From Lacticaseibacillus mingshuiensis (GTDB taxonomy: Bacteria; Bacillota; Bacilli; Lactobacillales; Lactobacillaceae), in contig NZ_BOLS01000002.1 of NCBI RefSeq assembly GCF_016861785.1, positions 1 through 64,000 of the forward strand: 64,000 nucleotides of DNA. Reading direction: 5' to 3'. This document shows, one piece after another, positions 3,536-49,018 of the stretch (position 1 is its first letter; every line of letters starts with the position of its first letter). The notes beneath the pieces were generated by a model, which ran no database searches, was not told the origin of the DNA, and saw only the letters and a list, made by a program, of their open reading frames with translations. The position numbers and the translations under genes were made by a program.

Positions 3536-4469
3536 TTTGTTCTCCTTTGATAAACGACGCGACAAGCTGATCGATCGCCTCAAGCGCAGTGGGCGTTTGA
3601 AGCAGGTCAAACCAGTTGGTCGGCATCTGATTGCGAAAATACGTCAATTGCCGTTTTGCATAATTGCGTGAATGCTGCTTGATCAGCGCAACGGCCGGCG
3701 CAAGTGGCGCCTGCTCCTGGAGCACCGGTACAAGCTCCTTGTAGCCGATCGCCTTAAATGCTTGGGCATCCGGCGACACCGTTTCAAGCAAGCCGGCCAC
3801 TTCCTGAAGAAGCCCTTGCTGCATCATCTGATCAACGCGCTGTTCGATGCGCCGATACAGCAGCGCGCGGTCCGTGGTCAGGCCGATCACCAGTGGCTGA
3901 TATGGCTCTGTCGGCGGCGATTGGGCGGAAAACAGTTGGCCGGTCTGCTCGATCACTTCAAGCGCCCGCACCACGCGCCGGGAATTGGCCGCTGGAATCT
4001 TGGCGGCTGCGGCGGGGTCGCGCGCCGCGAGCTGGTCGTGCAGCCAATCCTCCCCATGCGCCGCCAGTTCGGCCTCCCACCGCTGCCGAGCTGAGGTCGT
4101 CGCCGCCACACCTAAAGGCAGCCCCTTCGCCAAAGCATTCAGGTAAAAACCGGTGCCGCCGACCACGATCGGCAGTTTTCCCTGGGCCACCAGCGCTTGA
4201 ATCACGGTCCCGGCACGGGTCTGAAACTGAGCCGCAGTGAAAGGCGTCCCGGGATCCACAATATCAATGAGATGATGGGGCACCCCATCCATTTCCGTCG
4301 GGGTCACTTTGGCGGTGCCAATATCCATGCCGCGATAGATTTGATAGGCGTCGCCGTTGATCACTTCGCCGTTGAACTGTTGCGCAAGCTTGACCGCCAG
4401 CGCACTTTTTCCCACGGCAGTCGGACCGCCGATGAGAATGATCTTGGGTTTTAAAGCAGTTTTATTCAT
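3519..4469 (-). CDS. miaA: tRNA dimethylallyltransferase
   Basis: Transfers a dimethylallyl group to A37 of tRNAs that read UNN codons. The 316-residue protein starts with the P-loop GGPTAVGKSALA, followed by the substrate-binding DAYQIYRGMDIGTAK and the conserved NSRRVVRALEV and FKAIGYKEL stretches. The ATG at 4469 was chosen by homology; only a modest GGTGA precedes it. It is transcribed divergently from the DUF3042 gene and reads into the PLP enzyme gene. Confidence 0.95.
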   Translation of the reverse strand: MNKTALKPKIILIGGPTAVGKSALAVKLAQQFNGEVINGDAYQIYRGMDIGTAKVTPTEMDGVPHHLIDIVDPGTPFTAAQFQTRAGTVIQALVAQGKLPIVVGGTGFYLNALAKGLPLGVAATTSARQRWEAELAAHGEDWLHDQLAARDPAAAAKIPAANSRRVVRALEVIEQTGQLFSAQSPPTEPYQPLVIGLTTDRALLYRRIEQRVDQMMQQGLLQEVAGLLETVSPDAQAFKAIGYKELVPVLQEQAPLAPAVALIKQHSRNYAKRQLTYFRNQMPTNWFDLLQTPTALEAIDQLVASFIKGEQNGLAR

Positions 4470-45493: not shown

Positions 45494-46606
45494 CTAATCT
45501 TTGGCTGGCCGCTGCGTTTCTTGATCAAAATTATTGCGCACGACCCGCACCGGTTTCGCCGCCGGATCAAGGACCAGCACCAGATCATGATAACTGCCAT
45601 CGCTGCTCGGCCAGATCAAATCACGATGCTCTTCGGTGAGGCCCAAGAACGTCACGTCTGGTTCGGCTTTTGCCAGCAAATTTTCCAGTCGTCCTTCAGT
45701 GGTGGTCATCGAGTCCCCACTGTCATCGCTGCCATCATTGATCATCGCGACGATCTCGTGCCAATCCACACGCGCCGACTCCGGCCACTTTTTCATCCGT
45801 TGAGGCAGAAGTGGCCCGCCGTTTGTTAACTGGTAAACGAGCCGGTACGGTTTGACCGGCATACTATGCGTGATCGTGATCAAAGTCGGGTTTTCGCGCA
45901 TCCTACTGGCATATTTACGGATCGCATTTTTCACATAATACCAACGGGCGGCGGCCAGAATCACCGCTATCATCACTGCGTAAAAGCCCAAGCACAAGAA
46001 GTCCACGTCAAATGGGTACCGAACGAGTAATGTGAATTCCAGCTTAAAATATCGCCAGTCAAAGCCAGTGCTAGAGGTCATATGGTACGCAAACCAGACC
46101 AAAAAGCCAAACCAGACCACGCTGACGCGGCCATACCAGGCGAGCATCCGGTCGAGGGTCGTGCTGACTGAATACGACTTGCCCAAGACACGGTCATCGC
46201 TCAGCGTTTCGCGAATACGCGCGAGATATGGCAGGGCCGTCAGATCTTCGGTTGTGTCAGCCTCTTCTTGTGTCGTCGGCGCCGTCGCTGTTTCGGAGAC
46301 GGCGACTTGGCCGACGTCGGGAATCGAAGTACTGTTTGAGTCGGTCGGATCGTTACCTTCCCTTTCAGTTGGCACTGCGGCGATGTTGGTTGTTTCCTCT
46401 GCCTCGGATTCAGCTGAAAATGCCCCGGCTACGGATTCAGCACCAGAGTTTTCATCATTGGCTGGAGCGTTCGTTTGCACTCGATCATCGGAGGCCAACT
46501 GGCTCGCCGACTCACCTGTCAGTGTATTGTCATCGTTGTCGGTCAGTTCATCACTATTATTGTGCAGATCTGTTTGGTCATCTTGTGTGGGTCTACCAAT
46601 TGTCAT
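45494..46606 (-). CDS. unknown membrane protein with acidic disordered N-terminus
   Basis: A 370-residue protein I cannot assign. Residues 1-130 are disordered and rich in Asp, Glu, Thr, Ser, Asn and Ala. Two transmembrane helices follow (about 160-180, YGRVSVVWFGFLVWFAYHM; about 205-228, FDVDFLCLGFYAVMIAVILA), then a cytoplasmic-looking domain (RLVYQLTNGGPLLPQRMKKW to the end). The start (MTIGRPTQ) was chosen by GAGG seven bases before; an ATG one codon earlier is possible. Two 15-bp palindromes lie 107-162 bases upstream. Confidence 0.7.
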   Translation of the reverse strand: MTIGRPTQDDQTDLHNNSDELTDNDDNTLTGESASQLASDDRVQTNAPANDENSGAESVAGAFSAESEAEETTNIAAVPTEREGNDPTDSNSTSIPDVGQVAVSETATAPTTQEEADTTEDLTALPYLARIRETLSDDRVLGKSYSVSTTLDRMLAWYGRVSVVWFGFLVWFAYHMTSSTGFDWRYFKLEFTLLVRYPFDVDFLCLGFYAVMIAVILAAARWYYVKNAIRKYASRMRENPTLITITHSMPVKPYRLVYQLTNGGPLLPQRMKKWPESARVDWHEIVAMINDGSDDSGDSMTTTEGRLENLLAKAEPDVTFLGLTEEHRDLIWPSSDGSYHDLVLVLDPAAKPVRVVRNNFDQETQRPAKD

Positions 46607-46712
46607 CATGGCGCCTCGCTTTTTCCAGAATGGTAAAAGCATAACACGCGTGGCTCGGCAGATCTCGTCAAGGACGACAAAATACAGTTTGATAAATGAC
46701 ACGTCTGGCGGT

Positions 46713-46768
46713 TGTGATGCTGTCACATTATTTAGCACGCGCCCCGACAATTATGTGATGGCGTCACA
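46713..46768. promoter_or_regulatory. two palindromic operators upstream of the unknown membrane protein
   Basis: TGTGATGCTGTCACA (46713-46727) and TGTGATGGCGTCACA (46754-46768), 41 bases apart, about four helical turns. They are variants of the palindrome in the array at 47.3-48.5 kb. An extended -10-like TGC-TAAATA lies between them on the minus strand. Confidence 0.75.
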
Positions 46769-47329
46769 CTGATGTTGTCTGAATTCCGCAATGTCCGCAG
46801 TGGCACTGACTCTATGTCCCAAAAAGAGATCTACAAGTATGGCGACATTTGCTTGGGCGCAACCCACTCACGCGCATTCTACGACATTTTCATCACCAAT
46901 TCATCGACTTCGATGCGAACGCGACCTTCTAGCGCGAATCTCAGGGTCTTAATTAGCAGTCGAAAACAGCGGTATATCAGCGTTTTCCCCAAAGCTCTCT
47001 GGACAAGTCCCATGCAGAGATAATCCACGTTGTACGAAATACCGTCAACTCAACGCTTTGACAGTCGAGGCTTGATCTGTGATCGAAGCAGTTTAGCCCA
47101 CTGAATAGACGACCAGTTCCTCTTGGAATGTCGAGATTTTCCCTGGGAAAAGCAGAATGGCAGTCTCCGAGAGTGCAAGCTCTCATCATGATCGGTTTGT
47201 CCGGTCTCCGAGTTCACTGCGAACGGACCCATTCACTGAGAACAACTTAATGACAATTGATAGTGTCAGGCGATACCAGTCAGAGATGTTGGTTCTCTAC
47301 TAGATATGCAAAGCCACCAGCTGCTTGTT
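46769..47329. other. gene-free stretch next to the palindrome array
   Basis: No protein of any length is supported. Short dyads occur (e.g. GGTCTCCGAGTTC..GAAC..GGACC near 47200-47228) and may be heavily decayed array units. Confidence 0.4.
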
Positions 47330-48545
47330 ATGCGCGTACTCCGGGTATGCGAATATCCTGATTTAACCCTAAAGAGGAAACTTCGCATTCGCAGGTACGC
47401 GGCGCACGCCCCTGTCATCACCCTGACAAATAATGTGATGCCATCCCACCGATTCACCGGCCAGAATCCTGGCGTGCCACGAGTCGTAATATCTGAGAAC
47501 AAAAAACTGCACTAACTTATGAAATAGGCGGCTCTTCGTATTCTTAGAGAACCCCAGACAAGGCCCTGTTTGCCGTACAAGGTTTTTGCGCGTACCCGGG
47601 GTATGCAAATATCGTGCTTTGACCAGTCAAAACATAACTCCACATACTCGGGGTACGCAGAGTTGCATACGCCCTCTAATTTCCTCGGACAAATAATGGG
47701 ATACCATCACACCAATTCGCCTAGCGCCCCTCATCACCGATATATTGGTGTGATGCCATCACACAACTTGGTACCGAGCTCCAAGGGGCATGCGGCCGCG
47801 ATCTCAGAGAACGCGAAACAGAGCACCACCTACCGCGCCAGTTTTCCTTGTGTGTACTCCGGGTATGCGGATATCACATTGTATGCCCCAAAAACACAAC
47901 TCCGCATACCCGGAGTTCGCAGAGTTGCACGCCCCTCGGATTTCCCCCGAAAATAATGTGATGCCATCACACCAGGTCACCGTTCATCTGGAGGGCGTTC
48001 CAAGACCCACGATCTCAGAGATCGCAAATTTGCTCTTAGAAGCGAAAATCATTGATAGTTGCGATCTCAGAGATCGTCAGGCAGGTCACCGTCTACCGCG
48101 CAGTTTTCCCTGCGCGTACTCCGGGTATGCGGATAGCACATTGTGGGCCTCAAAAACACAACTCCGCATACCCGGAGTTTGCGGAGTTGCACGCCTCTCG
48201 GATTTCCCCCGAAAATAATGTGATGCCATCACACCAAGTCGCCGCCCCCTCTCGTCACTGCTACATTAGTGTGATGCCATCACAAAACTTGATATCGCCC
48301 CCAAGTGTTAAGACCGGCAATCTCAGAGACCACAAACTTGCTCTCAGACGAGAAAATCATTGCTACTCGCAATCTCAGAGATTGCCAGACTGAGCACCAC
48401 CAACCGCGCCAGTTTTACCCCGCGTACTCCGGGTATACGGATATCACATTCTATGCCCAAAAAACCTAACGCCGCATACCCGGGGTACGCGGCGTCACCG
48501 CACGCCCCGATTCGGCTCCAAAAAAATAATGTGATGCCATCACAC
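47330..48545. repeat. tandem array of five palindromic 260-bp units
   Basis: Each unit has (1) inverted arms ACTCCGGGTATGCGGA / TCCGCATACCCGGAGT about 34 bases apart, starting near 47336, 47591, 47856, 48117 and 48425; (2) the motif AATAATGTGATGCCATCACA; and (3) in the better units a pair of 15-17-base palindromes, GCGATCTCAGAGATCGC or GCAATCTCAGAGATTGC. Units grow more degenerate toward the left. The 15-bp operator occurs at 47434, 47697, 47749, 47957, 48219, 48270 and 48530. No gene is supported; reading frames through the repeats are products of the repetition. Confidence 0.9.
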
Positions 48546-48625
48546 CCGCACAATACCAATCCCACGGGCGGCCGGACTCGCCACACCGCACACAACCTCA
48601 CACCTTTTTCCGCAAAAAAGGCAAA

Positions 48626-48661: not shown

Positions 48662-49018
48662 TTATGCCAAAGCTTTCTTTGCGGCGTCTGCCAGAGCGGT
48701 GAAGCCCTCTGGATCGGCGATCGCGATGTCGGCAAGCATCTTACGGTTCATGTCGATGTTGGCCACTTTCAGACCGTGCATCAACTTGCTGTAAGAAATG
48801 TCGTTCATACGGGCTGCGGCGTTGATCCGTGCGATCCACAGGCTGCGGAAGTTGCGCTTGGTCGCGCGACGGTCGCGGAATGCGTAACGATAGGATACCA
48901 TGACCTGGGCATTGGCTGCCTTGAACAACAGATGCTTGGCCCCACGATAACCCTTGGCGAGCTTCAAGACCTTCTTACGACGCTTACGAGTAACAGTTCC
49001 ACCTTTAACACGTGGCAT
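48662..49018 (-). CDS. rplT: 50S ribosomal protein L20
   Basis: A 118-residue basic protein ([20 protein letters not shown], then [20 protein letters not shown]) that binds 23S rRNA early in 50S assembly and represses its own operon by binding the leader in Bacillus. AGGAGG precedes the ATG. Last gene of infC-rpmI-rplT. Confidence 0.97.

Follow-up and report, generated by a model that had tools for sequence, protein, structure and literature searches.

Gene-free mosaic arrays of odd palindromes in Lacticaseibacillus mingshuiensis are probable landing strips for TetR-type proteins

Results

The repeat block beside rplT in Lacticaseibacillus mingshuiensis is one of many gene-free arrays of short palindromes in this genome. 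These arrays are probably landing strips for TetR-type proteins, and not RNA genes or ordinary transposons, because the same kinds of site are found in front of small TetR-type genes. Many bacteria carry extragenic palindromic repeats, whose purpose has been debated for a long time. The family described here has a likely dedicated DNA-binding protein as its partner, and such a pairing is seen again, with another palindrome, in a further species. What led to the likely protein was the position of its gene, behind an array made of one palindrome type.

The window is a stretch of 64,000 nucleotides (C2:1-64000 of the L. mingshuiensis genome, G000). The host is close to L. yichunensis (G027), and a gene neighbouring the array is 92% identical to its L. 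yichunensis counterpart. The array is a mosaic without a convincing gene that spans 46713-48545, between a minus-strand gene for 372 aa with no Pfam or NCBIfam match (45494-46612) and a minus-strand gene for 118 aa (48662-49018), read as rplT and matched once in each of 30 genus genomes. It contains P1 at nine places and seven elements of about 69 bp. P1 is a 15-bp odd palindrome, TGTGATG-S-CATCACA, and with at most two mismatches it gave 16 strand-matches at these nine places in the window, against a shuffle mean of 0.21. In each element, two odd palindromes of 17 bp, both of one type, follow each other at about 52 bp. P2 (GCRATCTC-N-GAGATYGC) and P3 (GCRTACYC-N-GRGTAYGC) are present in the window array, and P4 (GCGGACYC-N-GRGTCCGC) was found in other arrays. 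The three have a common backbone and differ mainly at a dinucleotide of the half-site, as judged from an ungapped alignment of 86 elements (a selection: 168 at exactly 52 bp, 105 of these below 85% identity, 86 aligned).

The original prediction described five units of about 260 bp, with inverted arms and a 15-bp palindrome, filling 47330-48545. Such units do fill an interval without a convincing gene, and they do repeat, but at 256, 262, 262 and then 308 bp (family D4) rather than uniformly at 260 bp. Of the seven palindrome copies claimed, five are exact P1 (47749-47763, 47957-47971, 48219-48233, 48270-48284 and 48530-48544), one has one mismatch (47434-47448) and one has two (47697-47711). 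The palindrome search also located degenerate P1 copies at 46713-46727 (two mismatches) and 46754-46768 (one mismatch, minus strand), which lie outside the predicted extent and place the start of the array near 46713. Second copies do follow the first by 51-52 bp at 47697/47749 and 48219/48270. The long inverted arms are present, and are themselves odd palindromes of the P3 form repeated 52 bp on. Five bases separate TGTGA from TCACA, as had been stated; CRP operators are TGTGA-N6-TCACA, and CRP was rightly doubted. Repetitive reading frames, which the prediction linked to annotations of the L. casei group, were rejected, as the unit lengths (about 140, 240, 250 and 262 bp) are not multiples of three.

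All seven elements lie on the minus strand. Pairs at 52 bp and the element model identified P3-type elements at 47584-47664, 47846-47926, 48108-48188 and 48416-48496, and P2-type elements at 48003-48083 and 48311-48391. The remaining one is a degenerate P3-type element at 47328-47406 (model stretch including 6-bp flanks, E 1.5e-7), and a possible eighth at 47119-47182 is doubtful (E 0.045). Between P1 sites there is also a longer element, whose conserved core of about 144 bp (46849-46992, plus strand) was recognised from repeat copies in G000 and G027. This core has six copies longer than 100 bp in G000, including that of the window, and one in G027, all within arrays; the further copies are in loci L046, L048, L049, L053, L056 and L076.

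A genome-wide search for the palindrome, as first suggested, revealed 35 exact copies of P1 in G000 (95 with at most one mismatch; 0 for the reversed control) and 8 in G027. All 35 fall inside a set of at least 17 array clusters, at least 16 of them besides that of the window: L044-L057 (14), L082-L083 (2) and L200, the locus of TetR-B (described below). Clusters L057, L083 and L054 (two P1 only) have few sites and are counted but carry little evidence. Exact P1 was found in six of the 30 genus genomes, once each in G005, G024, G025 and G028; these single copies were judged unrelated, with no other array motif in 6-kb stretches. With the element model, which scored no more than 150 candidates in each genome, there were at least 150 matches in G000 and at least 148 in G027, counting both strands, and the other 28 of the 30 Lacticaseibacillus genomes had none. 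A weak match of 27 bp in G095 was dropped, as its sequence showed no motif.

Ten stretches of G027, picked because they carry these motifs, are flanked by the same genes as nine G000 arrays; the comparison covered these ten and left out the G027 clusters at the far end of C31 and on C53, C56 and C67. Where the window array lies, G027 has a much shorter one, so array length varies and place is kept where compared. In the 28 other genomes, generic palindrome and self-repeat counts downstream of rplT flagged nothing like the window array; three of these stretches are only 70-131 bp and one is 779 bp, and the count would hardly flag the short array of G027 itself (4 centres versus 0-9 elsewhere), which leaves the element model as the stronger negative. 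G022 carries its own long inverted repeats downstream of rplT (locus L132), which may belong to a separate family of extragenic repeats.

Genes neighbouring the arrays include rpoD and a PadR gene (Pfam), and glmU, metG, typA, trmFO and others (sequence reading). Most are housekeeping genes, and their arrangements are codirectional, convergent and, once, divergent. This set argues against a classical regulon, and a chromosomal role does not follow from the neighbours alone. The one array loss examined (L071 versus L050) was read as a join at a microhomology, GGAC, within a P4 palindrome. Since this loss does not join P1 to P1, a role of P1 as recombination site was rejected. Inside the L050 array lies a 104-aa orphan frame (4011-4325, plus strand) with no Pfam or NCBIfam match; this stretch is absent from G027 through the deletion joining at GGAC.

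Ten proteins encoded inside or next to arrays were scanned with Pfam, which revealed a TetR_N gene inside the array richest in P1 (L051). The start codon of this gene, encoding TetR-A (212 aa; C7:91405-92040), lies 141 bp after the last centre of 12 P1 sites with at most two mismatches. When P1 sites with up to five mismatches are counted, 10 of 14 gaps in the array measure 36-41 bp; no P2, P3 or P4 with at most three mismatches was found there. The TetR-A array region also contains an exact ATTTCCCGGGAAAT (L051 4704-4717), the Noc-binding site of Bacillus, which was seen in two of 150 loci, both covering the same place.

TetR-A is predicted to have an N-terminal TetR HTH domain. It matched PF00440 (E 3.8e-5; 23.8 bits, just under the cut-off of 24) and, by sequence, a TetR protein in the PDB (E 1.3e-5), and NCBIfam gave weak partial matches only, among them SlmA at E 0.048. 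AlphaFold2 models from shallow alignments have a mean pLDDT of 83.0 for TetR-A and 85.4 for TetR-B, with nine helices each. In a Foldseek search, the TetR-A model resembled TetR regulators in the PDB, with a best E of 8.8e-5 and a TMq of up to 0.69 among the matches listed.

A genus search with TetR-A found one clear paralog in G000, TetR-B (C1:203730-204350), which is 32% identical and shares the C-terminal end GLRQPRRP. Its counterpart in G027 is at C29:24480-25100. Upstream of TetR-B, the G000 array has 24 P4-type sites 52 or 53 bp apart (period 52.17 bp, residual 0.29) and the G027 array has 37 (period 52.10, with one missing site and one 50-bp step). The first sites lie 95-147 bp upstream of the gene, and no P1 or P2 is found in these arrays; where sites resembled P3 too, the P4 fit was better or equal. 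The genus search found no TetR-A in G027 despite the P1 sites of that genome; the gene may have been lost recently or may fall in an assembly gap. Compared with G000, P1 sites in G027 are worse in 11 and better in 4 of 29 cases, a difference that is not significant (p=0.11). We identified no regulator for P2 or P3. Neither TetR-A nor TetR-B had a match in plasmids at 1e-5, nor TetR-B in phages at 1e-5, and window positions 48002-48600 had no plasmid match. Ten viral contigs each had one 17-bp P1 match, with no element better than E 0.2. A phage or plasmid origin was rejected.

A subfamily profile made from six proteins retrieved seven genes at E <1e-20, two in G000, one in G027 and four in G013; six of these are themselves part of the profile and are bound to match, so the gene on G013 C32 is the one new find. 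The next match was at 1.8e-11, followed by generic TetR genes in all 30 genomes. Four of the seven subfamily genes have an upstream array of this kind, versus none of eight other TetR-like genes (from G000, G002, G012, G021 and G027). The strict palindrome scan overlooks most P4 sites, so the repeat scan is more telling for the absence of arrays.

In G013, a third species, one subfamily gene (C2:303723-304298) is preceded by seven copies of TGACGCGT-N-ACGCGTCA spaced 114-116 bp apart, with the first centre 94 bp before the start of the gene. This palindrome, also written TGACGCGTNACGCGTCA, is unrelated to P1-P4. If the system were of the same kind, dispersed copies would be expected in this genome, and this expectation was then searched. 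With at most two mismatches, G013 has 30 copies (reversed control 2), and each of the other 29 genomes has 0-3 (controls 0-4). Ten of the 30 are at the regulator locus and 20 elsewhere, mainly in three intergenic clusters, with one inside a reading frame. Gaps of up to 130 bp measure 51-53, 72-75, 95, 104-105 and 114-116 bp, plus one of 87 bp. Of these 28 short gaps, 27 deviate by 1.5 bp or less from whole 10.5-bp turns, against 8 expected; the gaps are not independent, and counted by locus and class the agreement is 9 of 10. The phase coherence R was 0.864 at 10.5-10.55 bp, the best value in a scan of 8-30 bp, and the maximum of 5000 jittered sets was 0.635. The other three G013 subfamily members have no array by palindrome and repeat scans. 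The C-terminal part of the fourth member (L191 3228-3854, minus strand, on C32) reads like a shifted frame.

Spacing was also measured in the other two species. Across 26 loci from both, consecutive palindromes of the same type are exactly 52 bp apart in 75/81 cases for P2, 57/63 for P4 and 28/35 for P3, and P2 and P4 are separated by 41 bp in 36/52. These distance counts were not preselected, whereas the elements used for spacer identity were preselected at 52 bp; mean spacer identity in them is 60% for P2, 48% for P3 and 59% for P4. A fixed distance combined with 48-60% spacer identity indicates that length is held and sequence drifts. In G000, every junction class has a mean phase that departs from whole 10.45-bp turns by about 1 bp at most, and 249 locus-junction-distance combinations gave an R of 0.512 near 10.6 bp, versus a jitter maximum of 0.249. 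The peak is broad, some junction classes have low coherence (0.25-0.35), and mixed junctions alone fit 12.7 bp slightly better than 10.45 bp (0.454 vs 0.422). Taken by itself, the G000 helical-phase signal is weak.

We compared the identity of sites and surrounding sequence between G000 and G027, with sites defined in G000 and bases treated as independent. Identity was 92.4% for P1 (450 bases), 87.5% for P2 (881), 86.6% for P4 (568) and 85.6% for P3 (153), versus 78.8% for spacers (1397), 81.8% for other array sequence (3656) and 93.7% for flanks. P1, P2 and P4 are thus better conserved than spacers (z 6.5, 5.3 and 4.0) and P3 marginally so (z 2.0); against other array sequence, z was 5.6, 4.0 and 2.8 for P1, P2 and P4, and 1.2 for P3.

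Among non-redundant elements (44 P2, 25 P3, 36 P4), Watson-Crick pairing inside the palindromes of a family did not exceed column shuffles (z 0.7, -1.4, -2.8, -0.9, -3.8 and -4.4), A.C was as common as G.U or commoner, and position 5/13 of P4 was A.A in 24 of 36 left palindromes. Pairing between arms had z values of -1.3, 0.2 and 2.5, P4 alone being mildly above shuffles. Two palindromes of the window had been described as differing by a compensated pair; both sequences exist, but the 44 P2 elements pair no better than shuffles. Aligning the units for covariation, also suggested at the outset, yielded none within families other than the mild P4 arm-to-arm excess. In the pooled alignment of the three families, pairing was above shuffles and slid controls because P2, P3 and P4 differ at the dinucleotide in all four half-sites. 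RNA structure was rejected as the source of a signal that lies across subfamilies and not, except between P4 arms, within them. Rfam gave no match in the window at gathering score.

Discussion

On balance, we favour the view that these are dispersed mosaic operator arrays bound by dedicated TetR-type homodimers, with a probable role at the level of the chromosome. Each odd palindrome (15 bp in P1; 17 bp in P2, P3 and P4) would be the site of one homodimer. TetR-A is the candidate protein for P1 and TetR-B for P4, each predicted to act on the site that alone makes up the array before its gene, and P2 and P3 may be TetR-B sites since they have the P4 backbone in common. Most sites are spaced by whole helical turns (52, 41, about 94 and 104 bp), which would put bound dimers on the same face of the double helix; they could then pack as neighbours or form loops from one array to another. 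An array at a regulator's own promoter would allow autoregulation, and the dispersed arrays, that of the window among them, would be mixed binding platforms. We infer binding, autoregulation and function from site, spacing, place, conservation, linkage to the genes and recurrence with another palindrome in a third species. As for function, by analogy, chromosome-level organisation in the manner of SlmA and RefZ seems most likely, because the neighbours are unrelated and mostly housekeeping genes. More tentatively, this might be a chromosome-organising or nucleoid-occlusion-like TetR system in Lacticaseibacillus, whose paralogs would nucleate on the phased arrays of their own genes and bridge to dispersed mosaics, with protein and palindrome changing together between species; we regard this fuller version as possible but doubtful. 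The three arrayless subfamily genes of G013, P1 in G027 without TetR-A, and P2 and P3 without a regulator count against the proposal.

The arrays could instead be extragenic repeats of a BIME or NIME kind, with no protein dedicated to them: modules, selfish or neutral, whose spread is old and whose copies are amplified by unequal recombination, with the TetR-type genes there by chance. Their mosaic, intergenic and lineage-specific nature and changing copy number would fit, and Neisseria NIME arrays follow the same plan (PMC3898611). We nevertheless find this rather unlikely: at four loci, spread over three species, a single-type array stands exactly at the promoter of a TetR-type gene (the palindrome being a different one in G013), gaps are whole turns, and palindromes are more conserved than spacers. 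It is also unlikely that the TetR-type regulators simply control adjacent genes, as a normal regulon whose sites are unusually numerous. Repression is the usual role of TetR proteins, and several arrays do adjoin promoters, for example upstream of the PadR gene in L055; however, the neighbours are functionally unrelated, some arrays lie between convergent genes (by sequence reading), and to our knowledge an array length of 1-3 kb exceeds that of any operator.

Mobility and RNA were the other two options raised by the original prediction, and neither fared well. REPIN-like elements moved in trans by a Y1 transposase would account for extragenic inverted palindrome pairs in high copy number, and both genomes have Y1 transposase matches (three in G000, two in G027). 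We consider this explanation very improbable, as two of the five Y1 loci were read and both look like IS605 with no array motif nearby, the consensus of 86 elements has no GTAG tag, and the array places compared are common to both species, with one loss by microhomology rather than precise excision; a currently mobile repeat is disfavoured by the same observations. A bank of small structured RNAs, suggested by the long inverted arms and the pooled pairing, is hardly credible given that the pooled signal comes from differences between subfamilies, that palindromes within a family do not exceed shuffles and that the window has no Rfam match. The predicted protein-binding platform is the option that gains support, indirectly, from degenerate DNA-level motifs, near-whole-turn spacing, conserved palindromes and single-type arrays upstream of TetR-type genes.

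We found no description of such an array and TetR system in the accessible portions of open-licence PMC papers; a survey of 40 genomes included, in the part available, one Lactobacillus, L. johnsonii (PMC2267715). Operators of TetR-family proteins such as tetO have one or two sites. Like them, our arrays place a short odd palindrome upstream of a regulator gene, but here the regulator has 7 to 37 sites, plus many dispersed ones. REP, BIME and REPIN elements (PMC2817692, PMC3733652) are likewise regularly spaced extragenic palindromes in inverted pairs with more than 100 copies. The present arrays differ in that we identified no RAYT (two of five Y1 matches read), that they are clustered with whole-turn spacing and linked to TetR-type genes, and that the consensus of the 86 elements has no GTAG (or CGTC) tetranucleotide beside the palindrome. 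NIMEs are intergenic mosaic arrays of dRS3 and RS sequences in Neisseria, 200-2700 bp long (PMC3898611). There too, short inverted repeats delimit modules in arrays of comparable size, as P1 stands between modules here. In contrast, dRS3 is ATTCCC-N8-GGGAAT, P1-P4 differ from it and are odd-length, our modules are palindrome pairs at a fixed 52 bp, and TetR-type genes stand behind single-type arrays.

SlmA of E. coli and RefZ of Bacillus belong to the TetR family, occupy sites on the chromosome and act on FtsZ (PMC3573117, PMC6657595). The likeness lies in a TetR-family protein with (near-)palindromic sites across the chromosome, RefZ being a Firmicutes case, and palindromic sites at many chromosomal places are found here as well. 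Unlike those systems, the sites here form long phased arrays and mosaics with several palindrome types per genome, the regulator gene lies behind its own array, and the sequence likeness to SlmA is the weak HTH match. If the binding is true, it would show an extragenic repeat family held in place by protein binding, and an array-based, TetR-type way to mark chromosomes would stand beside SlmA and RefZ.
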